Positions 1-27,061 of a stretch of DNA of 29,703 nucleotides are shown here, piece after piece (position 1 is the first letter of the stretch; each line of letters opens with the position of its first letter). This stretch comes from a virus. The stretch spans positions 1-29,703 of the IMG/VR virus record IMGVR_UViG_3300020187_000146, one strand, 5' to 3'. Position numbers and translations under genes: made by a program. The notes below the pieces were generated by a model. That model was given only the letters and a program-made list of their open reading frames with translations. It was not told the DNA's origin and did no database searches.

Positions 1-5
1 GACTC

Positions 6-215
6 ATGAGATTCCACAAGTTCGACATCCCTCGTCCCGAACAGATGCAGCAAGCCTTCGACTTCATGGACCTCGACAAAGATCAGCAGAATGAAGCAGT
101 CATTGAGATCTACAAAGCGGCAGCTGCTGCCTCTGCCCACGACATCGTCGACACCGTCAAGCGCAACCCCGGCAAGTTCCTCACTGCCTTCCTCGCTGGC
201 GCATTCACTTTCTAA
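6..215 (+). CDS. Small hypothetical protein (69 aa)
   Basis: I do not recognise this protein. It has an acidic, glutamine-rich N-terminal half (FDFMDLDKDQQNEA) and a short hydrophobic, alanine-rich C-terminus that could touch a membrane. Near the end is K-R-NPG-KFLTAFLAGAF, which resembles K-E-NPG-EVLLACITIAAF in the 62-aa protein at 738-926, so the two may be distant paralogues. The window begins GACTCATGA, identical to the end of the stop-start cassette that precedes the genes at 434 and 517. The ribosome binding site therefore probably lies just outside the left edge. The gene heads a tightly packed group of tiny genes. It looks real from its spacing and codon pattern, but no function can be given. 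Confidence 0.6.
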   Translation: MRFHKFDIPRPEQMQQAFDFMDLDKDQQNEAVIEIYKAAAAASAHDIVDTVKRNPGKFLTAFLAGAFTF

Positions 216-227
216 TTGGAGATCATC

Positions 228-437
228 ATGAAAGCATTCATCACAATCGCTCTTTCCTGCCTAGCCGTCTACGGCCTTGGCATCGCTTACGCCGCATCAA
301 CCCAATCCGTCGTTCAACCCAGCGACATCTCAGCCGACTACATCTGCATCAAAGACACGATGCCTGACGCTTACATCTGCCTACCCAAAGCAGAGAACCC
401 TGTCCCTTGGTATCTCAACATGGAGCATGACTCATGA
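228..437 (+). CDS. Small exported or membrane-anchored protein (69 aa)
   Basis: The ATG at 228 is preferred over the in-frame TTG at 216 because TTGGAG (216-221) lies at ribosome-binding distance before it. The first 22 or so residues (MKAFITIALSCLAVYGLGIAYAA) form a classic signal peptide with a hydrophobic core and a possible cleavage after AYA-A, so the product is probably exported. The mature part has two cysteines (YICIK and AYICLPK) that could form one disulfide. The last six codons (NMEHDS) come from a CATGNNN repeat cassette that is repeated at the end of the next gene. The stop overlaps the next start as ATGA at 434-437. No family was recognised. A role at the cell surface is inference from the signal peptide only. 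Confidence 0.6.
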   Translation: MKAFITIALSCLAVYGLGIAYAASTQSVVQPSDISADYICIKDTMPDAYICLPKAENPVPWYLNMEHDS

Positions 438-439
438 TT
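419..439. repeat. CATGNNN heptad array (3 units)
   Basis: Three consecutive 7-bp units starting with CATG (at 419, 426 and 433). The array contains GGAG (422-425), the TGA stop of the upstream gene and the ATG start at 434, so it acts as a complete stop-restart cassette. Confidence 0.75.
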
Positions 440-520
440 CAGTTCACAATACTCATGGGGGTCTTATTGGCCTCTGTCTTTCTCGCCATAGTTCTTGCCA
501 ACATGGAGCATGACTCATGA
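434..520 (+). CDS. Single-pass membrane micropeptide (28 aa)
   Basis: This short reading frame starts at ATG 434, which overlaps the stop of the preceding gene as ATGA, and has GGAG eight bases upstream. The product starts MIQFTILMGVLL and is almost entirely one hydrophobic segment of about 21 residues followed by NMEHDS, the same six residues that end the upstream protein. It ends in another ATGA overlap with the gene at 517. The compact overlaps and good ribosome binding site argue for translation. The micropeptide could be a small membrane regulator, but at 28 residues chance cannot be excluded. Confidence 0.5.
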   Translation: MIQFTILMGVLLASVFLAIVLANMEHDS

Positions 521-529
521 ACCATGCAC
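502..529. repeat. CATGNNN heptad array (4 units)
   Basis: Four units in exact 7-bp register (502, 509, 516, 523). The stretch CATGGAGCATGACTCATGA is identical to the cassette starting at 419. GGAG (505-508) is the ribosome binding site and ATG 517 the start of the next gene. Confidence 0.8.
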
Positions 530-741
530 CAACCGACGCTCTCTACGGGCAACAACAACTTCCGTTTTCTGACATCGAAATCGTCTGGAACAGCGACATT
601 GCAATCAACGACCGCATGTATCGCCCTTACCACGCTCAAGAGCAAGACCCTTTCCAGAACTTCATGCGTTGGTACGAGGACTCTTGTACCAGCCAAGGTC
701 TTGACCCCTTCCCAGAATGGAAAATGGAGTACTACGCATGA
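517..741 (+). CDS. Small hypothetical protein (74 aa)
   Basis: The start at 517 overlaps the previous stop and has GGAG nine bases upstream inside a heptad array. The product is polar, aromatic and acidic (for example QNFMRWYEDSC and PEWKMEYYA), with no signal peptide or membrane segment, so it is probably cytoplasmic. It ends in an ATGA overlap with the gene at 738. I recognise no family. The chain of overlapping starts suggests co-translation with its neighbours. Confidence 0.6.
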   Translation: MNHAPTDALYGQQQLPFSDIEIVWNSDIAINDRMYRPYHAQEQDPFQNFMRWYEDSCTSQGLDPFPEWKMEYYA

Positions 742-926
742 ATATACAATCCGCTAAAGCCCTCGCTACTCGCCTTGCCAAGTCCGCATGGAACGACATC
801 AAGGAGAACCCCGGCGAAGTCTTACTGGCTTGCATCACCATCGCAGCCTTTGACATCGCAGATTCTATGGACGCTATCGAGGATATGGATGGATTCCTCT
901 TCATCGACGAGACACCGGAGGTATGA
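738..926 (+). CDS. Small hypothetical protein (62 aa), possible paralogue of the 6-215 product
   Basis: The start at ATG 738 (MNIQSAKALATRL) is chosen over ATG 717 because it forms the same ATGA overlap used by its neighbours and has GGAG at 725-728. The protein has an amphipathic N-terminus, the motif K-E-NPG-EVLLACITIAAF, and an acidic tail (DSMDAIEDMD). The NPG motif followed by a short hydrophobic stretch resembles the protein at 6-215. It is the last gene before a 579-bp non-coding region. Function unknown. Confidence 0.55.
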   Translation: MNIQSAKALATRLAKSAWNDIKENPGEVLLACITIAAFDIADSMDAIEDMDGFLFIDETPEV

Positions 927-1027
927 GCCTTCGGTCAAACACACAGTGGCGGGGGTATCTACCTCCGTCCACTTACCCTCGTTCACTATCATCACCATGA
1001 TCACTGGGGGGTCCGGCGGGGGTGGAG

Positions 1028-1132
1028 CGTGCCAGTGAGTGTGCCAACCATGATTCATGCGCCATGTTCTCTGATACATGTTCCCTACCGCATCGTTTCT
1101 GGTACATGTTCCATGATTCGTGGCCCGTGTCC
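1028..1132. repeat. Long degenerate CATGNNN heptad array (about 15 units)
   Basis: Units stay in perfect 7-bp register from 1028 to 1132. Exact CATG begins units at 1049, 1056, 1063, 1077, 1105 and 1112; near matches (CGTG, CATC) begin units at 1028, 1091, 1119 and 1126. The array ends two bases before the first CTGTGAC iteron. It is the longest such array in the window. Confidence 0.75.
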
Positions 1133-1134
1133 GG

Positions 1135-1195
1135 CTGTGACACCACTGTGACGGACTGTGACAGCTGTGACGCTAACTGTGACACTAACTGTGAC
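1135..1195 (+). repeat. Direct iterons CTGTGAC x6
   Basis: Six exact CTGTGAC units start at 1135, 1146, 1156, 1165, 1177 and 1189. The spacings are 11, 10, 9, 12 and 12 bp, close to one helical turn, as expected for proteins bound on one face of DNA. Confidence 0.85.
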
Positions 1196-1253
1196 AGTCC
1201 ATTTTTTCTATAACTTACTGTTTTATATACCTTTTATCAATTTATACCCAAAA

Positions 1254-1269
1254 CTGTGACAGCTGTGAC
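1254..1269 (+). repeat. Direct iterons CTGTGAC x2
   Basis: Two exact units start at 1254 and 1263 (9 bp apart). They lie inside the AT-rich core in the same orientation as the 1135-1195 group. Confidence 0.8.
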
Positions 1270-1347
1270 ACCTTTTTTGGTTTCAGTTACACATAAGACC
1301 TTTACTTTTTTTTATGTTGTTTTTTTGAAATGAAAATACGTTTTACT

Positions 1348-1363
1348 GTCACAGTCGTCACAG
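1348..1363 (-). repeat. Inverted iterons GTCACAG x2
   Basis: Two units in the opposite orientation start at 1348 and 1357, 9 bp apart, mirroring the pair at 1254-1269 across a T-rich stretch. Confidence 0.8.
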
Positions 1364-1388
1364 TTGAGGTTTTATGCGGCTCTCCGCT

Positions 1389-1429
1389 GTCACAGTGCTG
1401 TCACAGTGCTGTCACAGTTGCTGTCACAG
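1389..1429 (-). repeat. Inverted iterons GTCACAG x4
   Basis: Four exact units start at 1389, 1400, 1411 and 1423 (spacings 11, 11 and 12 bp). They form the outer right arm facing the six units at 1135-1195. Confidence 0.85.
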
Positions 1430-1476
1430 TGTATATCCATACAGTACTTAATATTCTTTTTAGCTATTAAAACTCT

Positions 1477-1518
1477 CATGAACCATGCATCAGGAGACAT
1501 GACCCATGCTGCATCAAT
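1477..1518. repeat. CATGNNN heptad array (6 units) carrying an RBS and start
   Basis: Units begin at 1477, 1484, 1491 (CAGGAGA), 1498, 1505 and 1512. The CAGGAGA unit supplies the ribosome binding site and the unit at 1505 the start codon of the gene at 1506. Confidence 0.75.
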
Positions 1519-1688
1519 TTCGACGTTTTAATCGTTTCGAACTCTACCGTTTCAAGTCAAAGCTCAGCTCATGGCGTTTCGACAACATTGAGCTTCCTTT
1601 ACTGCGGTTAAGACTCCGACTTAGGCGTTACCGATACGTTTTCATTTGGGTAGCAATCATTGCTTTATTCATCAATCAGGAGATATGA
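1506..1688 (+). CDS. Basic protein with C-terminal membrane segment (60 aa)
   Basis: AGGAG (1492-1496) precedes ATG 1506 at a good distance. The product is strongly basic and aromatic (repeated RF and RLRLR motifs, about one residue in four being Arg or Lys). It ends in a hydrophobic stretch (VFIWVAIIALFI) that could cross the membrane once, leaving the basic part in the cytoplasm. The stop lies three bases before the next start, so the two genes are probably co-translated. No family recognised. The arginine-rich part could bind nucleic acid, which is only a guess. Confidence 0.5.
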   Translation: MLHQFRRFNRFELYRFKSKLSSWRFDNIELPLLRLRLRLRRYRYVFIWVAIIALFINQEI

Positions 1689-1697
1689 GCCATGTAC
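1670..1697. repeat. Heptad-register RBS and start cassette (4 units)
   Basis: Units at 1670 (CATCAAT), 1677 (CAGGAGA), 1684 (TATGAGC) and 1691 (CATGTAC). The same order of RBS unit, spacer unit and start unit occurs at 1491-1511. Confidence 0.6.
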
Positions 1698-1931
1698 AAA
1701 GTTTATTTCGAGTACAACAACGACCTGCACGTAGCAGAACGTGAACACCTCAAGGATGTCAAATGGGATCTCATGGTCCATCGTGATCTCTACGGCAGAC
1801 ATGCTTGGGCAACACGCGTCCTCAACGACGAACTTGAAGAGGTCGTTACGTTCAGCCAGAACCAAACGGTTCCTCGTTCCTCAGAACCGACCGTAAAGGT
1901 TAAGCAAGCGACAGCGTTTACTACCGCTTAG
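1692..1931 (+). CDS. Hypothetical protein (79 aa)
   Basis: ATG 1692 follows AGGAG (1678-1682) inside a heptad-register cassette, three bases after the upstream stop. The N-terminus (MYKVYFEYNNDLHVAE) looks like a beta strand followed by a charged region and a Thr/Val-rich tail. It loosely resembles the start of the protein at 2739 (SYKVYVQETN), but I would not claim homology. No membrane segment and no known motif. It is the last gene before the first promoter-operator at 1936-1964. Confidence 0.55.
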   Translation: MYKVYFEYNNDLHVAEREHLKDVKWDLMVHRDLYGRHAWATRVLNDELEEVVTFSQNQTVPRSSEPTVKVKQATAFTTA

Positions 1932-1935
1932 TTTG

Positions 1936-1964
1936 TTGCTTTGTAATATTAGTAGTACTAATCT
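1936..1964 (+). promoter_or_regulatory. Promoter with ATTAG-N5-CTAAT operator (operator 1948-1962)
   Basis: The -35 is TTGCTT (1936-1941), followed by a 17-bp spacer and -10 TAATCT (1959-1964). The palindrome ATTAG-TAGTA-CTAAT fills the end of the spacer and overlaps the -10, so a bound repressor would block RNA polymerase. It serves the gene at 1988. Confidence 0.75.
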
Positions 1965-1987
1965 AACTTCAACGTAAGGAATACATC

Positions 1988-2656
1988 ATGACTTCATATT
2001 CAGAATCATTCATCCCCGGTGCCATGAACAAGCTGTGTGCTGGCAAGACTAACAGCCACTTCACCAACCTCGCTAACTACATCGCTGGTTTCACTAACGA
2101 CAGCACGCCCATCGACGTAGCTCTAGCAAAAGCTGTGTTCGAGTGCCAGTCTGCCGAGCAAGAAGCCCCTTTTCACACGTTCGCTGTCCTTGGTTTCTTT
2201 CAGACCATCATGGACCGCGTTATGTGGAATGCACGTAAGCTTCGCATCGCCATGGACCGAGCCGAACAGCAGCAACAAGAGTCCGGCGGCATCTACGGTG
2301 TTGATCTTGCACAGTCTGCAATCGACGACGTAGAGGTCAACGACGTTCCCTTCAACCGTATCAAAGACGCTGTACAGTCTGACTACGAGCTTCTGTTCAC
2401 AACACAGACCCTCATCATGTCTGAGCTAGCCATCGACGGCGAGCAGTTCGGTATCGACTTGTTGTTCTTCAACCCATCTAACCTTGACGAGACATCAGGC
2501 CAGTGGGTACAGGACACTCCCGCCGATACCTACGACGATGCCATGCGTGTCATGCAAGAAATCGTCGACGACCTCAAAGCCGCAGACAACAAGACTCTGA
2601 TGGCTGGCTACCTCAAGAACCGTGAAGCCGTGCTAGCTGCGCGTCTAGCGGCGTAA
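1988..2656 (+). CDS. Hypothetical protein (222 aa) in its own transcription unit
   Basis: ATG 1988 follows AAGGA (1976-1980). The protein is soluble, acidic and mostly helical in appearance, with no signal peptide, membrane segment or recognised motif. Features include a Gln-rich stretch (RAEQQQQESGG, near residue 95) and an acidic middle (DDVEVNDVP). It stands alone, with its own operator-bearing promoter (1936-1964) and a strong intrinsic terminator right behind it (2669-2711). That suggests a single abundant product made when repression is lifted. Candidates would be a ssDNA-binding or host-takeover protein, but nothing in the sequence decides this. Confidence 0.75.
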   Translation: MTSYSESFIPGAMNKLCAGKTNSHFTNLANYIAGFTNDSTPIDVALAKAVFECQSAEQEAPFHTFAVLGFFQTIMDRVMWNARKLRIAMDRAEQQQQESGGIYGVDLAQSAIDDVEVNDVPFNRIKDAVQSDYELLFTTQTLIMSELAIDGEQFGIDLLFFNPSNLDETSGQWVQDTPADTYDDAMRVMQEIVDDLKAADNKTLMAGYLKNREAVLAARLAA

Positions 2657-2668
2657 CCCGTTGCTCCC

Positions 2669-2711
2669 CCCGATGCTAGGCAGACATGACCTGTTTAGCA
2701 TCGGGTTTTTT
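2669..2711 (+). terminator. Strong intrinsic terminator
   Basis: A perfect 10-bp stem CCCGATGCTA (2669-2678) and TAGCATCGGG (2696-2705) with a 17-base loop is followed at once by six T residues. It lies 12 bases after the stop of the 222-aa gene. Confidence 0.92.
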
Positions 2712-2738
2712 ATTTTCCCACACTGGATGGAGCGTGCC

Positions 2739-2897
2739 ATGCCTAGCTACAAAGTTTACGTCCAAGAAACCAACGTAGTCGTTTACTACGTAGATGCCGA
2801 CAGCCCCGAGGAAGCTGAAGAAAATTACTGGGATGACTTCGGCTACAAGCACCTTAGATGTGACGAGTCCGAAGTAATCGAAGTGGAGGAAACATGA
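2739..2897 (+). CDS. Small acidic protein (52 aa)
   Basis: The start at ATG 2739 has GGAG at 2729-2732. An upstream in-frame TTG at 2661 is rejected because it lies before the terminator hairpin. The product begins with beta-like strands (SYKVYVQETNVVVYYVDADS) followed by an EEAEENYWDD acidic helix. Small phage and bacterial proteins with this strand, then a SPEEAEE-type helix, are common but uncharacterised. The stop overlaps the next start as ATGA at 2894. Function unknown. Confidence 0.65.
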   Translation: MPSYKVYVQETNVVVYYVDADSPEEAEENYWDDFGYKHLRCDESEVIEVEET

Positions 2898-3079
2898 GTG
2901 AAGAACCAGTAATCATGACCAAAAAGCAGCTGTGGATGAACCAAGTTGCCGCCTTTAACTTTGAGAAGGACGAAGACGCACTCTTAGAAGCAGCCTTGCA
3001 GAAAGGTTTCGTCCATCAAGTAGGCGACGACCAGTACCAAATCAACATGAACTATCCAGAGGAGAAAGTAGACCAATGA
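2894..3079 (+). CDS. Hypothetical protein (61 aa)
   Basis: Starts in an ATGA overlap, with GGAGGA directly upstream (2886-2891). The protein is helical and charged (LWMNQVAAFNFEKDEDALLEAALQKGFVHQVGDDQYQINM). It may be a small helix-turn-strand domain, but no family is recognised. It ends in another ATGA overlap at 3076, so it is probably translated together with its neighbours. Confidence 0.6.
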   Translation: MSEEPVIMTKKQLWMNQVAAFNFEKDEDALLEAALQKGFVHQVGDDQYQINMNYPEEKVDQ

Positions 3080-3381
3080 GTTTTAAAAATACTGCAAGCA
3101 AAACAACCCAAATTGATCCCAACGAATTCCCCTTCGAAGAACTCCGCGATAAAAACGGTGACTATTTCTTAACTGTAGGTGACGCCAAAACTGCAGGTTT
3201 CGACATCGATCAAATTTGGTCTGTTGTATGCGAAGACGGTAGCGACGACAAAGTACACAGCGTCTGGTGCTACGGGCCACCACGACACGTCGTAAATGTA
3301 GTGGGTTATACCTGCACTAAAGAACGTCATGACCATGACACCTACTTCGAGGAGATTATTTACAATGATGACTTCGACTAA
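3076..3381 (+). CDS. Hypothetical acidic protein (101 aa)
   Basis: ATG 3076 overlaps the previous stop and follows GAGGAGAAAG. The product is acidic. A strand-rich region (DYFLTVGDAKTAGFDIDQIWSVVCEDGSDDKVHSVWCYGPPRHVVNVVGYTC) is followed by a very acidic tail containing HDHDTYFEE. Three cysteines and several histidines occur, but without a clear metal motif. The end overlaps the next gene by 17 bases. Function unknown. Confidence 0.6.
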   Translation: MSFKNTASKTTQIDPNEFPFEELRDKNGDYFLTVGDAKTAGFDIDQIWSVVCEDGSDDKVHSVWCYGPPRHVVNVVGYTCTKERHDHDTYFEEIIYNDDFD

Positions 3382-3888: not shown

Positions 3889-4172
3889 CAGCAGCTGGCT
3901 TGCTGTTCCTACTGTTCAAATTTGGCATGCGCCGCATCATTAACTACGACATCTACATCGATGTCATCGTAACAACCCTGCTGATGTTCCTACTTGCAGG
4001 CACATTCAGCGGCATGATGGCAGCGCTCTTTGCTGGTCTGATTGTCAGCGTCATGCTCTTCCTCATGAAGCGCACCATGCGACATGAGTCATTCGGCATG
4101 ATCAAGACTGACAAGTTTCCCTACCGCAAGTTCGGCTGGCGCGTGCATGAGCCGCAAGGCGTCGTGTCATGA
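3867..4172 (+). CDS. Membrane protein with three hydrophobic segments (101 aa)
   Basis: The product starts MILAGLIAAAGLLFLLFKFG (first membrane helix). A helix around residues 28-45 (YIDVIVTTLLMFLLAG) and a third (MMAALFAGLIVSVMLFLM) follow, then a basic cytoplasmic tail (KRTMRHESFGMIKTDKFPYRKFGWRV). The size fits a small inner-membrane phage protein. A holin-like role is possible, but there is no lysis enzyme next to it. A CATGNNN array (4076-4103) lies within the tail codons. Its start is an ATGA overlap and the operator at 3872 lies in its first codons. Confidence 0.65.
   Translation: MILAGLIAAAGLLFLLFKFGMRRIINYDIYIDVIVTTLLMFLLAGTFSGMMAALFAGLIVSVMLFLMKRTMRHESFGMIKTDKFPYRKFGWRVHEPQGVVS
4076..4103. 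repeat. CATGNNN heptad array (4 units) inside a gene
   Basis: Units at 4076, 4083, 4090 (CATTCGG) and 4097, all in 7-bp register within the coding sequence of the membrane protein, where they encode MRHESFGM. A 7-bp period cannot come from codon bias. Confidence 0.65.
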
Positions 4173-4943: not shown

Positions 4944-5137
4944 AATGTGAATGGTGCTGCGAACACGTATCAGAAAAAGAAGCAGCTTATTGGCCCGAAG
5001 ACGTACCTGAAGACATCCGTATCCCTGACAAAACTGACTTCATGACGTATCACAAATGGTGTTTTGAAGCAGTAATTGCTGATGAACGCCAGAACCAATT
5101 CATGAAGCATGCACCAGACAACATGGAGGTCGCATGA
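4940..5137 (+). CDS. Small zinc-knuckle-like protein (65 aa)
   Basis: Starts in an ATGA overlap. CEWCCEHVS at residues 3-11 and HKWCFEAV near residue 38-45 give a CxxC...HxxC set, a plausible zinc site. The region between is acidic and proline-containing. A CATGNNN array spans the last codons (5101-5128). The stop overlaps the next start at 5134. Metal binding is inferred from residue spacing only. Confidence 0.6.
   Translation: MKCEWCCEHVSEKEAAYWPEDVPEDIRIPDKTDFMTYHKWCFEAVIADERQNQFMKHAPDNMEVA
5101..5128. repeat. CATGNNN heptad array (4 units)
   Basis: Units at 5101, 5108, 5115 (CAGACAA) and 5122 in 7-bp register, followed by one offset CATGATG at 5133. The unit CATGGAG supplies GGAG (5125-5128) for the start at 5134. 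Confidence 0.65.
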
Positions 5138-7094: not shown

Positions 7095-7129
7095 CATGGA
7101 TCATGAATCATCAACCATGCGACGTGTCA
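7095..7129. repeat. CATGNNN heptad array (5 units) at the VWA gene start
   Basis: Units at 7095, 7102, 7109 (CATCAAC), 7116 and 7123 (CGTGTCA) in 7-bp register. The first holds ATG 7096 and the fourth ATG 7117, the two possible starts of the VWA gene. Confidence 0.7.
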
Positions 7130-10768: not shown

Positions 10769-13267
10769 ATGAGAATTACCTTTCTGGGCGCTTCAAATGG
10801 CCTCAGCCTGAGTAAACATCACATATCACACAATACATTCCAACCTTACCCACAAGTAAAAAAAGTAACTTCTTTTGAACACGACATCACAGATATAGAA
10901 GAGCTTTACGAAGCAATCAGCAGCCACGCTGCAAAAGGTCACTGCTTACTAAAAGGTAATTTACAAAGGCCCCTTGTAGAAGAAAGCAGAGCAGGAGTAA
11001 CAAACCGTAGCGCACCAAGTCAATTACTTGTCTTAGACTTTGATGGCATACGCTTAAATGAAAATAAGTTTAGTCCTTACTGGAACATCAATACCGAGAA
11101 GCTAAAGAATATAGCTGAAGAACTCGTAAAGTGTTTACCCAGTGAGCTACAGAACATCAGCTATATTGCACAAGCCTCTTCAAGTATTGGCTTTAAAAGC
11201 GATGCTATTAGCATGCACATCTTTATGCTGCTTGACATACCTATTGCTGTCAAAACCATCAAACTATGGATGCAGCATGTTAATTACAACAACAATGCTT
11301 TCAAAGAGCAGTTAGAGCTATCTGTAAACGGCCAATCATTAAAGTATCCTTTAGATGTATCTGTCGCAGATAACTCAAAGCTGATCTTTATTGCACCCCC
11401 TACTTTTCAAGACTCACGAAATGATCCGTTTATGTCCTCTGATGACCGCATCATCTATGTTGCTAAACAAACGCAGCAATTGGCGCTTGCTAGTCTTGTT
11501 GCAAACTTGAGTCCACAAGCCATATACGAACAAAGCCAAAAAATTAAGAATCAATTACGAGAGAAAAATGGTTTAAGCAAAGCTGCAGAAAAAATAAAAA
11601 TCATGCAAGTCGACAACCAGTCCCAGGAGGTGTTGCTTAACCCCGACAAGATGGCTATTACAGTTGCAGATACTACTAACAAGCCTTACATACGCTGCAA
11701 CATCAACAGCGGCGACTCCAATGCGTATTGGTTCAACCTTGAAAACCCAGTGTATATGTACAATTTTAAGGGCGAACCTATCTTTCTTTTAGAAAAAGCA
11801 GACAGTGATTTCTATCAATCTATCTTTGAGATTTTTGAATCTGAAATGCAAAAAGAAGGTGCTCCAGAGCAACCCGTTGTGTTTCGAGACTTCAACACCG
11901 ACGTTTATTGGAACGGCATCTACAACCCCACCTCAAACGACTTTTTAGAATTAAAACCTACATCACGAAACTCTATTGAAGACTTCATGCGAACACATGG
12001 AAGGCCCGCACCAGATTTTATACCTGATGCAATGATGTCTTTTGACCCTCAAAACTCTGGACCTTCTGTTGACCTAAGCACTCTCCCTTATCGCATCAAC
12101 ACCTTCAAGCGCACTATGTTCATGAAAAATGCTATTGAGCCTCAAGAACCAATAGAGCTCGGTTACGCTACAAAACTCACGGAAAAATGCCCTACCATCT
12201 ATAAATTAATAAAGCACATACTTGGCGATGGGCAACAAGAAGTTGAACGCTTTATTAACTGGCTTGCTTACATCTACCAAACCAAAGAAAAAGCAAAAAC
12301 TGCATGGGTACTAAGCGGCGTACCGGGGACTGGAAAAGGTGTGTTTGCGTATCAAGTCTTACGTCCTCTACTTGGAGAAGAACAAGCTCCTGTAAAAACA
12401 CTTGAAAACCTTGAGGAGCAATTTAACTCCTATTTGCAGCAGGCGCTTGTGTGTGTCGTAGACGAGTTTCATATGGCAAGCAGTGCAGCTATGCAAAAAG
12501 TAGCTAACAAACTAAAGAACCAAATTACAGAACCTTCAGTCACAATCCGAAAAATGCGTTCAAATCAAATAGAAGTATCTAACTTTACGAGCTTTATATT
12601 TCTAACTAACCACGTTGATGCAGTACGCATCGAACCAGGTGATCGACGCTACAACATTGCACCCCGACAAGAAACCAAGCTACTAGAAAAACACCCAGAC
12701 ATTGTTGACCAGTTCAAACTTATACCAAAAGAGCTTTTACATTTTGCTGGTGCTCTAAGTACTTTCAAGTACAACGAGTCATTAGTGCGTATGCCTGTAG
12801 ATAACGAAGCCAAGCAAATGATGAAAACAGCTTCTTTAAGCGTATTCGAAGAGTTTTGCGACGCAATTCGTGGCGGAGATGTTCTGTTCTTTACTGATAT
12901 CCTCGATATCAAAGTAACAAACGTCATGATGTCAGGCGATATCGACGCTGCTCAACGACTAGTAAAGGCTTGGCTCTCAGATGCCGAGAAAAAATACTAC
13001 AGCGTCATACCAGCAGAAAATTTCAGACTCGTCTACAACGTATACACAGAAGCAACACCTCGAATATCTCTAAATGAGTTTCGTAAGCGTTTACAAAGAA
13101 ACAACATTGAAATCACTAGAAAACGCCCAGCACAAGCAGCCGGAAACGCAAATGCGACTGTTTTAAGAGGCGTTGTTTGCGACTGGGATGTTGACGAGTA
13201 TCAACTGAAGCACGTTATAAACCAGTATTTCAATAAGGAAGATCAAATGCTCTTGCGTGTTTCATAA
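10769..13267 (+). CDS. PrimPol-like primase and SF3 helicase (832 aa)
   Basis: ATG 10769 has GGAG at 10760-10763. The N-terminal third resembles an archaeo-eukaryotic primase (PrimPol): LLVLDFDGI (acidic pair near residue 90) and SMHIF (near residue 148), the usual DxD and SxH metal and nucleotide residues. The C-terminal part is a superfamily 3 helicase: Walker A GVPGTGKG (about 515-522), Walker B VCVVDEF (about 560-566), sensor asparagine in FLTNHVDAVR (about 612) and an arginine in PGDRR. Fused primase-helicases of this sort (DUF5906 group) prime and unwind DNA in phages and mobile elements. Its origin partner is probably the iteron region at 1135-1429. The middle (about 280-450) is not assigned. 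Confidence 0.85.
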   Translation: MRITFLGASNGLSLSKHHISHNTFQPYPQVKKVTSFEHDITDIEELYEAISSHAAKGHCLLKGNLQRPLVEESRAGVTNRSAPSQLLVLDFDGIRLNENKFSPYWNINTEKLKNIAEELVKCLPSELQNISYIAQASSSIGFKSDAISMHIFMLLDIPIAVKTIKLWMQHVNYNNNAFKEQLELSVNGQSLKYPLDVSVADNSKLIFIAPPTFQDSRNDPFMSSDDRIIYVAKQTQQLALASLVANLSPQAIYEQSQKIKNQLREKNGLSKAAEKIKIMQVDNQSQEVLLNPDKMAITVADTTNKPYIRCNINSGDSNAYWFNLENPVYMYNFKGEPIFLLEKADSDFYQSIFEIFESEMQKEGAPEQPVVFRDFNTDVYWNGIYNPTSNDFLELKPTSRNSIEDFMRTHGRPAPDFIPDAMMSFDPQNSGPSVDLSTLPYRINTFKRTMFMKNAIEPQEPIELGYATKLTEKCPTIYKLIKHILGDGQQEVERFINWLAYIYQTKEKAKTAWVLSGVPGTGKGVFAYQVLRPLLGEEQAPVKTLENLEEQFNSYLQQALVCVVDEFHMASSAAMQKVANKLKNQITEPSVTIRKMRSNQIEVSNFTSFIFLTNHVDAVRIEPGDRRYNIAPRQETKLLEKHPDIVDQFKLIPKELLHFAGALSTFKYNESLVRMPVDNEAKQMMKTASLSVFEEFCDAIRGGDVLFFTDILDIKVTNVMMSGDIDAAQRLVKAWLSDAEKKYYSVIPAENFRLVYNVYTEATPRISLNEFRKRLQRNNIEITRKRPAQAAGNANATVLRGVVCDWDVDEYQLKHVINQYFNKEDQMLLRVS

Positions 13268-15491: not shown

Positions 15492-16847
15492 ATGCATAAA
15501 CCTTTTGAACATCAAAAAAATACTACTGACTTCATCCTCAATAACCCCAGAGTTCTCATCACAAGTGATCCCGGCACAGGCAAAACACGTTCTGTACTGG
15601 ACGCATACGCCCAGCGGAAAGCTGCTAAGCTACTTGTACTCGCCCCTCTCAGCATCCTCGGAGCCAGTTGGGGAGATGATTGTGGCAAGTTCCAACCCAA
15701 CCTAAAGTACGCAATCGCGTATGCAAAAAACCGTGAAGCTGCTTTCAAAGCTGATGTAGACATTGTCATTACTAATCATGACGCTGTTAAATGGCTTGCT
15801 AAAAAGACGAACATACACTTACTCGACACTTTCAATACTGTTTGTATTGACGAATTTACTGCATTCAAAAATCCAAACAGCCAGCGCAGCAAAGCCATGG
15901 CACGTATTGCCGAGCATTTTGATTACCGCATAGCCATGTCTGGCACGCCTAACAGCAACACCATATTAGATATATGGCACCCTACATTGCTTGTCGACGA
16001 CGGTGAGCGACTCGGTAAACGCTTTTCTGGGTTCCGTGGCGCAGTATGCACACCGCAGTTCAATGGCTTTGCTAACGTCTGGACAGACAAGCCGGAAGCC
16101 CAGGAAATAGTTGCTGCTGCTATCAAAGACATTAACGTCCGATACATGCTTGAAAGTTGTATCGACATGCCAGAACAATCAGTCAACACAGTGTATGTAG
16201 ACTTACCACCAAAAATTCTGCAGCAATACAATACGCTCGCAGAAGAATCCGTTTTGTACACGGGCAAAGGCACAATCAATGCTATTCATGCTGGCGCTAA
16301 AGTAAAGAAACTACTACAGCTGTGTACAGGCGCTGTGTACGACGACCATGGGAAGTCGCTCATGGTCCATGACGCACGCTACCAGCTTGTTATGGATCTC
16401 ATACAAGCAAGACAACATAGTCTAGTTGCATTCAACTGGCGTCACGAACGTGAAAAGCTGACTGAACTTTCTGAAAAAGCTGGCATCCGTTACGACTTTA
16501 TTGACGGTAGTACTCCAGCCAAAAATCGCAAAGACATCGTAGATCGTATGCAAGCGGGGCAGTTGCAAGTTGTATTCGCACACCCTCAGTCTGCCGGGCA
16601 TGGCCTAACACTAACGCGCGCAACCTCCGTTATCTGGGCTTCCCCTACCTACAACGCTGAGCATTACCAGCAATTCAACCGTCGTATTTACCGTGCCGGG
16701 CAAACTAAAAAGACCCAAGTAATACAGATTGCAGCACGCAATACGTGGGAACCCGATGTTTACGAAAAGCTTCAAGACAAACTTGGAAGAATGGAAGACC
16801 TACTTACAGTACTCAATAAACTCAACACACTAAGGGAATCAGCATGA
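15492..16847 (+). CDS. SNF2-family helicase (451 aa)
   Basis: ATG 15492 lies 10 bases after the upstream stop. It is a superfamily 2 SNF2-type ATPase with all main motifs: Walker A DPGTGKT (residues 26-32), motif II DEFT (about 120-123, in place of DEAH), motif III SGTP (about 150), motif V QSAGHGLTL (about 363-371) and motif VI QFNRRIYRAGQTK (about 393-405). At 451 residues it is the compact phage form. Phage members help replication or recombination by moving along DNA and removing proteins. Its operon partner at 16844 has a coiled coil. A heptad array (16347-16381) lies in its codons. Confidence 0.9.
   Translation: MHKPFEHQKNTTDFILNNPRVLITSDPGTGKTRSVLDAYAQRKAAKLLVLAPLSILGASWGDDCGKFQPNLKYAIAYAKNREAAFKADVDIVITNHDAVKWLAKKTNIHLLDTFNTVCIDEFTAFKNPNSQRSKAMARIAEHFDYRIAMSGTPNSNTILDIWHPTLLVDDGERLGKRFSGFRGAVCTPQFNGFANVWTDKPEAQEIVAAAIKDINVRYMLESCIDMPEQSVNTVYVDLPPKILQQYNTLAEESVLYTGKGTINAIHAGAKVKKLLQLCTGAVYDDHGKSLMVHDARYQLVMDLIQARQHSLVAFNWRHEREKLTELSEKAGIRYDFIDGSTPAKNRKDIVDRMQAGQLQVVFAHPQSAGHGLTLTRATSVIWASPTYNAEHYQQFNRRIYRAGQTKKTQVIQIAARNTWEPDVYEKLQDKLGRMEDLLTVLNKLNTLRESA
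16347..16381. repeat. CATGNNN heptad array (5 units) inside the helicase gene
   Basis: Units at 16347, 16354 (AGTCGCT), 16361, 16368 and 16375 (CACGCTA), in 7-bp register within a conserved gene. Confidence 0.5.
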
Positions 16848-17933: not shown

Positions 17934-18370
17934 TGAACGAGCACGGCTTCATAAAAGCCGTGCATCGGCACCTTCCAGCTGAACTGTATCGATGGAAAAT
18001 CCATGATACATATACCGGCGGCGTTCCTGACGCTTTCTATTGTGGACCCGCCGGTTCCCTATGGATTGAGTATAAATACATACAACTTCCTAAGCGGAAA
18101 AGCACGATTGTCACCTTTGGCACGTCAGAACTACAACGAATATGGTTGACAAAAATGCAAAACAACGGACAATTAACCGGACTAATAGTTGGCTGGGAAC
18201 GACAGGCCATAGTAATCGACCCTAGCTTACTCCTTAGCCCTATCAACAGCGGCGACTTAATAAAGCGAGGTATGCCTTTTAAACACGTTGCCAAGCATAT
18301 AGAAACAACATGTATGTCAGGAGGATGTATACATGAACACGTTGCCGAAAGCGGTAATAAACTTGCGTAG
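17933..18370 (+). CDS. VRR-NUC-type nuclease (145 aa)
   Basis: ATG 17933 follows GTAATAA without a strong ribosome site. The product has the VRR-NUC layout: a short N-terminal helix, GGVPDAFY (Asp33), then LWIEYKY (Glu46 and Lys48), the PD-(D/E)XK catalytic set. Such small nucleases cut branched or structured DNA, for example replication forks or Holliday-like junctions, and are common in phages. It is bracketed by 21-bp direct repeats. Its last 38 bases overlap the repressor start, giving a repressor N-terminus duplicated from the left repeat. It looks like an inserted cassette. Confidence 0.8.
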   Translation: MNEHGFIKAVHRHLPAELYRWKIHDTYTGGVPDAFYCGPAGSLWIEYKYIQLPKRKSTIVTFGTSELQRIWLTKMQNNGQLTGLIVGWERQAIVIDPSLLLSPINSGDLIKRGMPFKHVAKHIETTCMSGGCIHEHVAESGNKLA

Positions 18371-18920
18371 AATTTGGGAAAACAAAAAACACCATTTAGA
18401 AATAACTCAAGCCCAAGCCGCAGAAAAATTAGGATGGACGCAGGGAGCGTTCAGCCAATACCTTAACAACATAACTGATTTACACCCTGATGCTGTGGCA
18501 AAGCTAGCAAATTTTCTTGAAGTTGACCCCCTTGAAATTGACCCCGCTTATAGCCCTGTAGAGGCTAAGCGCATTCGCGTGCCAGTGCTGCATATTCATC
18601 CTAAAACCCCCGCTAATCATAAAGAAATAGCGTACAGACGGCGCGTCATAACGACTGTAGCTGAAGAGAACCACAAGGCAATCTGCGCTATACGACTAGA
18701 AAAAGACTTACGACCAATAGGTTTTGCAGGTCAAATGACGCTGTGTTCAGACATGTTTAAACTAAAAAACCCCCGCCTAACGCCAGGTCGTATAATAGAA
18801 TTCTACGTGATCAAACGTAAAAACAGCGACCCGCTTGAAGTAGTAAAAATTAATGAATGCCCGCCTGACAAAGAGCTAGAAGCCAAGCTGCTGCCACTAC
18901 TCACTTACGTCATTAATTAA
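18333..18920 (+). CDS. XRE-type phage repressor, no S24 motif seen (195 aa)
   Basis: ATG 18333 has AGGAGG at 18319-18324. An XRE helix-turn-helix lies at residues about 20-45 (ITQAQAAEKLGWTQGAFSQYLNN), typical of lambda-CI-like repressors. The C-terminal half has strands (IRVPVLHIHPKTP, ICAIRLEKDLRPIGFAGQ, IIEFYVIKRKN) that recall the LexA/CI fold. I see no serine-lysine autocleavage motif, so RecA-driven self-cleavage is doubtful. Immediately behind it lie a palindrome (18921-18942) and two promoter-operators of the ATTAG-N5-CTAAT type. It is the best candidate to bind the ten operators, though direct evidence is lacking. The repeat-derived codons LPKAVIN suggest its start was rewritten by the VRR-NUC insertion. 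Confidence 0.82.
   Translation: MNTLPKAVINLRRIWENKKHHLEITQAQAAEKLGWTQGAFSQYLNNITDLHPDAVAKLANFLEVDPLEIDPAYSPVEAKRIRVPVLHIHPKTPANHKEIAYRRRVITTVAEENHKAICAIRLEKDLRPIGFAGQMTLCSDMFKLKNPRLTPGRIIEFYVIKRKNSDPLEVVKINECPPDKELEAKLLPLLTYVIN
18341..18361 (+). repeat. 21-bp direct repeat, right copy
   Basis: Exact copy of 17913-17933, lying within the repressor's codons 4-10. The two copies are 428 bp apart and enclose the VRR-NUC gene. Confidence 0.9.
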
Positions 18921-19734: not shown

Positions 19735-20764
19735 CAGCAAGAACTTGCCCAGGCTTTAGTTGAGTGTAGCGTTTAAGCGTGTCCCAAGACTTATGGCCGG
19801 ACACCAACGCTACTTGCTCTATCGTTAACTTTTGTTCAAACAAACGACTGCACGCTTCGTGCCGAAGATCGTGAAAGTGCAAATCCCCAAAACCCGCTAG
19901 CTGCGCTACATCTGCAAACTTATCTGACACAGCGCCCGCAGTAGCAACCTGGCAGAAGACTCTTCCGCGCTGCTTGCTGCATAACCATAGACCATGAAGC
20001 AGGGACCATGTCTCATGGAGCATGGGGATTGTTTCATCGTTGCCTTCTTTCTCTTGCGGATCTTTACGATCACGAATGGTAAGCGTGCGATTCTCAAAGT
20101 CCACGTCTTCCCAGGTCTGCCGATGGATCTCAGCAAGACGCATAGCATTGTGAACAGCAATAACAATGAAGTGTGAGATCCAGTGCCCTTTAGCTGCTTC
20201 CATAAGCTTTTCGTACTCACCAGAGGCGAGCCTACGTGAACGCTTGCGGCTAGGGCCTACCAACTTCATCTTTGCGAGAGCGTAGCGCGCGTCTCTCACG
20301 GGGTTTGTTTCAAAAGGCATGCCCCATGATATGCGAGCAAACTCGACGAGCTCCGCCATATATTGAAGCTGAGTATTAAGCGTGCTTCGTGCAACACCCT
20401 TCTTGTCGTCTGTTCCCAACCTACGTTGACGACCATACTCCAACACTTTCTCTACTGTAATCTCATGCAACTTGTAGTGACCAATTTCGCGTTGCGTCAA
20501 CCGATAAGTAGAAATTTTGGACTCGCAAAAATTGTTAAGGGGATGGACTTCTTTGATGTAGCGATCGATCAGATGACCGAACGTCGTCTTCTTTTCGGAT
20601 CTCTGTTTGCGTGCCAGCAAAGCGCCGGACTCAATGTCCGCTTCTGTCCGCTTCGCCCACTGACGGGCTTCGGTTTTAGTGTCAAAAGTTCTACTGACCG
20701 CTGGATGCCCAGCTTTGCGAACTTCGGCGTAAAACCGCCCGTTCCGATTGCGGATTGATGCCAT
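19718..20764 (-). CDS. int: Tyrosine integrase (348 aa)
   Basis: Start ATG at 20764 (minus), with GAGGAAG just upstream. Full-length tyrosine recombinase: an N-terminal arm-binding domain (about 1-60), a core-binding domain, and a catalytic domain with Arg209 (NAMRLAEI), Lys234, HDLR (His298 to Arg301), His324 (GHKSW) and the nucleophile Tyr333 (KRYTQL). All active residues are present, so it should integrate the phage. It is on the strand opposite to the early genes and convergent with the excisionase. Upstream of its start are direct TGCGTCA repeats (20780-20797), which may be its own binding sites. A CATGNNN array (19986-20027) lies in its codons. Confidence 0.93.
   Translation of the reverse strand: MASIRNRNGRFYAEVRKAGHPAVSRTFDTKTEARQWAKRTEADIESGALLARKQRSEKKTTFGHLIDRYIKEVHPLNNFCESKISTYRLTQREIGHYKLHEITVEKVLEYGRQRRLGTDDKKGVARSTLNTQLQYMAELVEFARISWGMPFETNPVRDARYALAKMKLVGPSRKRSRRLASGEYEKLMEAAKGHWISHFIVIAVHNAMRLAEIHRQTWEDVDFENRTLTIRDRKDPQEKEGNDETIPMLHETWSLLHGLWLCSKQRGRVFCQVATAGAVSDKFADVAQLAGFGDLHFHDLRHEACSRLFEQKLTIEQVALVSGHKSWDTLKRYTQLKPGQVLAAIEGN
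19986..20027. repeat. CATGNNN heptad array (6 units) inside the integrase gene
   Basis: Units at 19986 (CATAGAC), 19993, 20000 (CAGGGAC), 20007, 20014 and 20021 in strict 7-bp register. It lies in the integrase coding region (residues about 246-260) and encodes a HETWSLLHG-like stretch. Because CATG is palindromic, its strand is not defined. Confidence 0.7.
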
Positions 20765-20775
20765 GTCTTCCTCAT

Positions 20776-21020
20776 GAAGTGCGTCAAAAGTGCGTCATTG
20801 CACGAGGAAAACGATAGCAAGATTTTTTATTTTTGTAAAACAGCAACTTACAAGCGCTGTTTTTGATGGAGGCTCGGGTCGGAATCTTACCGTAACTGGT
20901 TGTTTTATATAGACTTACTGCTACTTAGTACTGCATGGTACATATTGAATTACTGCATATTACTGCATGCTACTGCATGAACTGCGTCAAAAATTGCGTC
21001 ATTACCAAGAGATTGCGTCA
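20776..21020. other. Candidate attP region with arm-type sites
   Basis: Direct TGCGTCA heptamers lie in two clusters, at 20780 and 20791 next to the integrase start, and at 20983, 20995 and 21014. About 190 bp separate them. Four TACTGCAT octamers lie between (20929, 20951, 20961, 20971). This fits a lambda-like attP: arm sites P and P' on both sides of a core that should lie about 20865-20950. The core itself cannot be located without the host junction sequence. The region holds no gene. Confidence 0.6.
20837..20863. terminator. Possible bidirectional terminator
   Basis: AAAACAGC (20837-20844) and GCTGTTTT (20856-20863) form a perfect 8-bp arm with an 11-base loop. A/T runs lie at both ends. 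It would end the leftward tail transcript before the integrase gene. The T-tract is short, so efficiency is uncertain. Confidence 0.5.
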
Positions 21021-26197: not shown

Positions 26198-26224
26198 GGT
26201 TATACCTTCGAAGTCTCTACAGCT

Positions 26225-26539
26225 TTAGCACCCACCAGAGCCGCCAAAGGTGAAAGGATCGCACTCTTCCTCTACGACCACCTCTTCTTCACAGTCAACA
26301 GAACCGCCGCCAAAGGTTAGGCTGCTGTCCTGACAGACCTCTGTAACCTCTACAACCGGCGTCAACGGGCGAAGGTCAAAGCCACCCTCGTTGAACCTCG
26401 TGAATGTCCATACAGTATTTTCTTCAACGTAAACTTTAGAGCCTACAGGCAAGTCAATAACAGTTCCGTCAGCCAAATAAATTTCTGAAGCTGTTACGTT
26501 TAAAGCCACCAAGACTAACAACAGTGCTAATACCTTCAT
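26225..26539 (-). CDS. Small exported acidic protein with Cys (104 aa)
   Basis: ATG at 26539. The first 17-18 residues (MKVLALLLVLVALNVTA) form a signal peptide, so the product is likely exported. After that come IYLADGTVIDLPVGSKVYVEE and an acidic repeat-like C-terminus with two similar phrases: SSLTFGGGSVDCEEE and CDPFTFGGSGGC. Four cysteines in the tail could form disulfides or bind metal. I recall similar small secreted proteins beside tail genes in marine phages, without known function. GAGGA lies upstream. Confidence 0.55.
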   Translation of the reverse strand: MKVLALLLVLVALNVTASEIYLADGTVIDLPVGSKVYVEENTVWTFTRFNEGGFDLRPLTPVVEVTEVCQDSSLTFGGGSVDCEEEVVVEEECDPFTFGGSGGC

Positions 26540-26581
26540 TTTTTAATGTCCTCTATCCCTGATGCCGTAAGGAACAACTGG

Positions 26582-27061
26582 TCATTCGGCAAGCAATCTG
26601 GCGGCTTCTGCCTCTGCTTCAAGCAAAGCAACTGCTGAGTTCGCGTACTCCAATTGCTCCTCTAGCCTGTCTGCCGCTTCTGCTGCCGTTTCTGGCGTAG
26701 ACTCTGCCGCTGCTGCTTCTGCTGCTGCTGCTTCTTCTGCCGCAACCCGCACATCACGCTCAACCGCTAAGTGCATATACAAACTAAACAACGCAGCATA
26801 AAGCTCTACGTATGTGCTTGATGCTCCGGTTTCTGAGCCAGTCTCGGGGTCTAGGATTGGAAATGCCGTCATCATATTTTCATTAGTAAACTCAGAAGCT
26901 ACGTGACCAATCCGCTGCCCCAGAGTTTCACCATCGTCTAAGACAACCACCTTTTCCTCTTGGAATTCGATGTGCTTGTATGAGGTATCGTTGTTAATGA
27001 TTACGGTGTGTGCGCGGATGTAAGAGGTTCCGCTAGCTGTAGTCTCTTTGTAATTAGCCAT
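26582..27061 (-). CDS. Tail-region hypothetical protein with Ala/Glu-rich coiled tail (159 aa)
   Basis: ATG at 27061 (MANYKETTASGTSYIRAHTV) has AGGAGG just upstream; a longer frame from 27175 would overlap the next gene by 106 bases, so the shorter start is preferred. The N-terminal half is strand-rich (TVIINNDTSYKHIEFQEEKVVVLDDGET). The C-terminus is a long Ala/Glu helix (AAEEAAAAEAAAAES, then LEEQLEYANSAVALLEAEAEAARLLAE) likely to be a coiled coil. The DNA there is GCT/GCA-rich and could slip in length. Probably a structural or assembly protein by location. Confidence 0.55.
   Translation of the reverse strand: MANYKETTASGTSYIRAHTVIINNDTSYKHIEFQEEKVVVLDDGETLGQRIGHVASEFTNENMMTAFPILDPETGSETGASSTYVELYAALFSLYMHLAVERDVRVAAEEAAAAEAAAAESTPETAAEAADRLEEQLEYANSAVALLEAEAEAARLLAE

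Follow-up and report, generated by a model that had tools for sequence, protein, structure and literature searches.

In the origins of phage-inducible chromosomal islands (PICIs), an AT-rich region is always bordered by one set of iterons on either side, and for one such origin function together with pri-rep was shown (PMC6092414); according to one paper, this layout of the PICI and Staphylococcus aureus pathogenicity island (SaPI) origins exists in no other known bacterial replicon. For SaPI Rep and Cch2, the C-terminal domain binds their origins (PMC7581432). Here we describe a facing iteron array in the IMG/VR virus record IMGVR_UViG_3300020187_000146, a stretch of 29.7 kb (hereafter the window) containing a fragment of a marine temperate tailed phage. 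We read this array, at positions 1135-1429, as the replication origin of the phage, with its iterons predicted from the sequence to be recognized by the winged helix of a PrimPol/SF3 protein, and we give this reading a probability of about 0.86.

The array is built from CTGTGAC units, of which eight on the plus strand (1135, 1146, 1156, 1165, 1177, 1189, 1254 and 1263) face six on the minus strand, read as GTCACAG (1348, 1357, 1389, 1400, 1411 and 1423). The outer-left block (1135-1195, plus strand) contains six CTGTGAC(A) iterons at steps of 9-12 bp and is followed by a spacer of 58 bp (1196-1253, 78% AT) and by the inner-left pair TGTGACA-N2-TGTGACA (1254-1270, plus strand). On the other side, the inner-right pair (1348-1363, minus strand) faces the left pair, and an outer block of four iterons (1389-1429, minus strand) has steps of 11-12 bp. 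Both inner pairs have a step of exactly 9 bp and are kept in relatives, while the distance from outer to inner block, start to start, is 65 bp on the left and 32 bp on the right. Between the inner pairs lies the AT-rich core (1270-1347), the presumed melting site, whose length was also followed in relatives; it has 78 bp, 76% AT and 51% T, and a comparable AT content is found in 0.02% of the 78-bp stretches of the window. Outside the array, CTGTGAC occurs at just two positions (26141 and 29005), and the total of 16 against 4.2 expected was reached in 0 of 100 dinucleotide shuffles. The region is intergenic, with small plus-strand open reading frames (ORFs) on both sides. Searches found no sigma-70-like promoter in 1-3000 (3.7 expected), no DnaA-box cluster (a single site with one mismatch at 1242) and, among known phages, no DNA similar to 900-1700. 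The first-pass annotation had described this locus correctly in all its iteron counts and coordinates, in the 9-12 bp spacings within blocks, in the T-rich core and in the view that no promoter or gene explains it, and the distance of about 9 kb that it gave to the PrimPol/SF3 gene was measured as 9.3 kb, to the right of the array.

The locus shares with PICI and SaPI origins (SaPI Rep, SaPI5 PriRep1, SCCmec Cch2) the two facing iteron sets around an AT-rich region and, by prediction, a helicase of the self-loading SF3/D5 type whose C-terminal domain binds DNA. It differs in that PICIs and SaPIs are satellites without structural genes, whereas here the element is a tailed phage with tail proteins (records of relatives reach 57-62 kb); moreover, their origins lie immediately 3' of the rep gene and ours 9.3 kb upstream of PrimPol, and the presumed initiator here, a PrimPol fusion, resembles NrS-1 most closely. 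The comparison concerns layout; the iteron word here is TGTNNCA. By analogy, the array most probably works like a PICI/SaPI origin without being classed as one, because it belongs to a full-size phage and is far from the gene of its presumed initiator.

The same design was found in relatives, with other words. The window PrimPol, used as query, retrieved 80 viral loci, of which four have about 68% identity and the remainder 44-53%, and in which arrays could be assessed where sufficient upstream DNA was present. A strict model, requiring two TGTNNC sites of the same word 8-12 bp apart facing two more, returned arrays in several diverged lineages, all with inner steps of 9 bp and with a core measuring about 72-91 bp, and zero arrays in 2.0 Mb of reversed sequence. 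Most relatives have the array about 7-14 kb upstream of PrimPol. In G001, G003 and G004 its position is orthologous, as it is flanked by the same neighbors, the homologues of window 738-926 and 1988-2656. Alignment of 19 arrays showed that nearly every invariant column falls in the TGTNNC iterons of the inner pairs. The common frame is TGT-NN-CA, whose two middle bases differ between genomes and are uniform across copies: GA in the window, GC in G001, AC in G002, AG in G012 and G007, and GT in G006. TGTGCCA is thus the word of G001, G003, G004 and G020, TGTACCA that of G002, G024, G026 and G022, TGTAGCA that of G012 and G007, and TGTGTCA that of G006 and G015; G019 mixes TGTGTCA and TGTGCCA, and further out the words diverge more, as in G023 (TGGTTCC), G011 (TGAGACA) and G027 (TGTGCGC). 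In L217 (6950-7400), L251 and L258 the left half of the array differs in word from the right half (TGTGTCA and TGTGCCA), possibly as word-switching intermediates or sites of relaxed readers. A ACTATCATC element beside the arrays was discarded as a shared feature, being confined to some clades.

We then compared iteron words with protein sequences. G001 and G002 have PrimPols 90% identical and different words, and the divergence is greatest in the last 62 amino acids. In 23 genomes, the similarity of 36 PrimPol segments was correlated with word similarity, holding the remainder of the protein constant. Segments 769-789 and 790-810 gave partial r of 0.34 and 0.31 (0 of 300 permutations), while the remaining segments stayed at or below 0.23. 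Seven other proteins (repressor, integrase, excisionase, SNF2 helicase, nuclease, VRR and gp34) gave r between -0.25 and 0.01; in the genomes of that comparison, PrimPol 768-808 gave 0.38-0.43 (p at most 0.001). For close pairs, at least 72% identical in amino acids 76-760, the average drop of identity within 768-808 was 10 points where the words agree and 24 where they differ. The clearest case is G031 (L404), in which all 14 iterons are TGTGCCA. Its repressor is identical to that of the window over the first 70 amino acids, helix-turn-helix (HTH) included, and its excisionase and integrase are 95% and 96% identical, while its PrimPol shows 44% identity in 768-808 against 74% in 1-760. As the repressor HTH is identical and the word is not, the repressor is excluded as reader; excisionase and integrase were rejected together with it on this case and on the lack of word association. 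Covariation of single residues was dropped as too weak and clade-bound. Since in related phages every copy of the word is altered in step with the DNA-reading tip of PrimPol, this tip, in the C-terminal winged helix, is very probably the part that reads the iterons. The first-pass annotation had proposed PrimPol/SF3 as likely initiator, which agrees with these comparisons, where no other tested protein followed the word; its second candidate, a small left-end protein, found no support, since no array-adjacent ORF is common to all array-bearing relatives compared.

The PrimPol gene (10769-13267, plus strand) encodes 832 amino acids with a PrimPol and an SF3 (DUF5906) helicase part, and is the presumed initiator gene. 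Its product matches phrog_24712 over 1-817 (E 2.8e-175) and PF19263 (E 4.8e-19). An AlphaFold2 (AF2) model of amino acids 687-832 (146 residues) is a winged helix with pLDDT 91 and pTM 0.85, with a recognition helix at 768-777, strands at 783-785 and 799-805, and a wing at 786-798. The two word-associated segments correspond in this model to the recognition helix and the wing; the stretch whose similarity follows the word (768-808, helix, beta strand and wing) is encoded at 13070-13192 on the plus strand. The full PrimPol model matches the C-terminal region of NrS-1 (Z 19.1 over 362 amino acids), SaPI5 PriRep1 primase-helicase (Z 11.5) and also poxvirus D5/E5 helicases. For the winged helix, the top solved match, by realignment, is NrS-1 617-718 (Z 7.0, 96 amino acids), a value within the range of common arrangements, as Z under 8 alone is no proof of kinship; Foldseek with the C-terminal domain alone gave no match at E under 0.001.

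A scan of DNA independent of any protein pointed to the same kind of helicase. Viral contigs were scanned for pairs of TGTGNCA or TGTANCA that face each other over a distance of 62-92 bp, which gave 86 and 67 stretches, in total 153 with the facing design. Among the 50 longer records, the PrimPol family was present in 15 (E 1e-47 or better) and a weak SF3 match in one more; PF19263 was found in 9 of the 35 remaining records, the weak SF3 record among them. Altogether, 24 of 50 array records contained a DUF5906/D5-type helicase against 1 of 50 control records, drawn from an unrelated repeat scan. In seven of the nine non-PrimPol helicase records the array directly follows the 3' end of the helicase gene, which is also its place in PICIs; the phage records L261, L256, L351 and L250 have a distance of about 80-100 bp from the D5/DUF5906-type helicase gene. 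A single array locus per record was found in 27 of 28 records, near-complete relatives included, the 28th being G020, whose left pair is 10 bp apart. The helicases of these records, together with the geometry conserved in relatives, support the earlier call of an origin. A broad initial scan, for CTGTGAC in three copies, returned chiefly unrelated direct repeats and was discarded. We also set aside arrays with two copies per side and a 68-bp gap, as in L276, where a TGTGACA/TGTGCCA element (3210-3309) adjoins a terS-like gene, because the records tested contained no PrimPol. Similar loci are L267, L273, L278, L281, L283, L284, L287, L289, L301, L311, L315, L316 and L319; they probably represent a different kind of element, which may be an origin of its own or a site for packaging.

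A parallel among cultured phages is Pseudomonas phage KPP25 (Kochitakasuvirus), with a PrimPol of the same family at 32% identity. An unannotated intergenic gap of 677 bp (26218-26895; L245 6219-6896), 12 kb upstream of its PrimPol, contains TGTTACGA pairs at a 9-bp distance and, beyond an AT-rich stretch, TCGTAACA/TCGTGACA in facing orientation. The word is another one, sites are fewer, the core is longer and extra direct repeats lie on the right; we propose this gap, from its sequence, as the predicted origin of KPP25. In the satellite phage P4, the C-terminal winged helix of alpha binds the sites of the phage. P4 resembles the window in its primase-helicase initiator (alpha) and in short TGT-initial sites, TGTTCACC, in both orientations, and in its crr two plus-strand TGTTCAC sites 9 bp apart face two on the minus strand. 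It differs in the word (TGTTCACC against TGTGACA here and TGTNNCA in relatives), in the facing distance of crr, just about 35 bp, and in needing two separate cis sites against one array locus per record here, the window itself being a fragment. The PrimPol of NrS-1 is the closest solved structure to that of the window, and a comparable facing array was looked for in NrS-1 and not found; its polymerase is said to recognize a sequence of 8 nt that occurs at two places of the genome (PMC7102993). Classical plasmid iteron origins (RepA/TrfA) have direct iterons, an AT-rich region, DnaA boxes and a RepA-type initiator, whereas here blocks are facing, no DnaA-box cluster is present and the candidate initiator is an SF3 PrimPol. 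Iteron-Rep specificity in geminiviruses involves a rolling-circle Rep, with unrelated fold and host.

According to the mechanism we propose, the winged helix of PrimPol/SF3 (amino acids about 740-808) would bind the iterons and one helicase ring would assemble on each facing block, where the median is six sites on a side. These rings would meet across the core, melt it and load as opposed helicases, while the N-terminal archaeo-eukaryotic primase (AEP) domain would prime; replication would probably be bidirectional and use the family A polymerase of the phage (8745-10562).

Several observations weigh against an origin read by PrimPol. The array is 9.3 kb from the initiator gene, unlike PICI/SaPI origins just 3' of theirs, and GC skew has no consistent switch at the array, a result that does not decide on an origin. 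G016 and G017 showed no array, and the strict pattern was absent from the examined DNA of PrimPol members at about 34% identity (Oceanisphaera, Pasteurella, Parendozoicomonas, Spirabiliibacterium and phage phiA008); distant prophage relatives of PrimPol were located in Gammaproteobacteria. Among scan records, 26 of 50 showed no DUF5906-type helicase; some of these are fragments, and others probably belong to an element of a different kind. The association tests are indicative, as genomes share ancestry and the correction for phylogeny is incomplete, and single columns associated weakly (p 0.11 and 0.02).

The alternative that survives best, although we consider it unlikely, is that PrimPol binds the array mainly for copy-number control, titration or partition, the true origin being elsewhere. 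Extra iterons can serve in control in plasmids, each side here has inner and outer block types, and P4 has a second cis site, crr, separate from ori. Nevertheless, the AT-rich core is kept between inner pairs at a near-fixed distance, near-complete relatives also have a single such locus, and PICIs use this layout as a functional origin. Still less probable is another phage or host DNA-binding protein as reader, such as a small left-end protein: the reader comparison covered a part of the window ORFs, and small ORFs near the array vary between relatives, but none adjoining the array is common to all array-bearing relatives compared, PrimPol 769-810 alone tracks the word, and array records show a strong enrichment of D5/DUF5906-type helicases, with the array 3' of their gene in 7 of 9. 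An operator or regulatory cluster for the XRE repressor (18333-18920), the excisionase or the integrase is similarly remote, even if the phage is temperate with genes for all three and the repressor is found in many relatives, since G031 combines an identical repressor HTH and near-identical Xis and Int with TGTGCCA instead of TGTGACA, none of the three shows word association, no promoter-like site is present, and KPP25, whose close relative CRPAP1904 was reported as lytic, has a similar facing array.

The window contains further features. The heptad array noted on the left of the iterons is real, consisting of CATG heptads at 1049-1130, and is a second repeat system, distinct from the iterons. 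In the window, CATG pairs are strongly phased at 7 bp, with 19 at distance 7, 13 at 14 and 13 at 21 (about 1 expected), and small clusters, frequently at gene junctions and start codons, lie at 419-454, 502-523, 1049-1112, 1477-1505, 4076-4097, 5101-5122, 7095-7116, 16347-16368 and 19993-20021. Close relatives also have CATG heptads, and other clades use another tetramer (CACG in G020, TATC in G019). The early module, on the plus strand, encodes a MoxR-like AAA ATPase, a DUF2201 metallopeptidase/VWA protein, the family A DNA polymerase, PrimPol/SF3, a PD-(D/E)XK nuclease, an SNF2-type helicase, the XRE repressor and an excisionase; the integrase gene is on the minus strand, and tail genes are also present. 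Between the integrase and tail genes, near the expected attP, a 10-bp repeat, ATTACTGCAT, has three copies at 20949-20978.

In conclusion, the array supplies a testable origin and initiator for a PrimPol family common in marine viral contigs; we found no described origin for this phage family, phrog_24712, which is listed as "unknown function". It would also extend the PICI-type origin layout to full-size phages, and the many winged helices that occur in nature with an iteron word of their own may reveal how an initiator and about 14 sites shift specificity jointly. We see an even chance that origins with two iteron sets form a general class in full-size tailed phages with D5/DUF5906-type helicases, in which the middle bases of TGT-NN-CA are re-coded in all copies jointly with the initiator's recognition helix and wing. 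Given such joint re-coding, the class would hold a natural, readable specificity code. If this is true, the code would prevent a phage or satellite from firing the origin of a related one.
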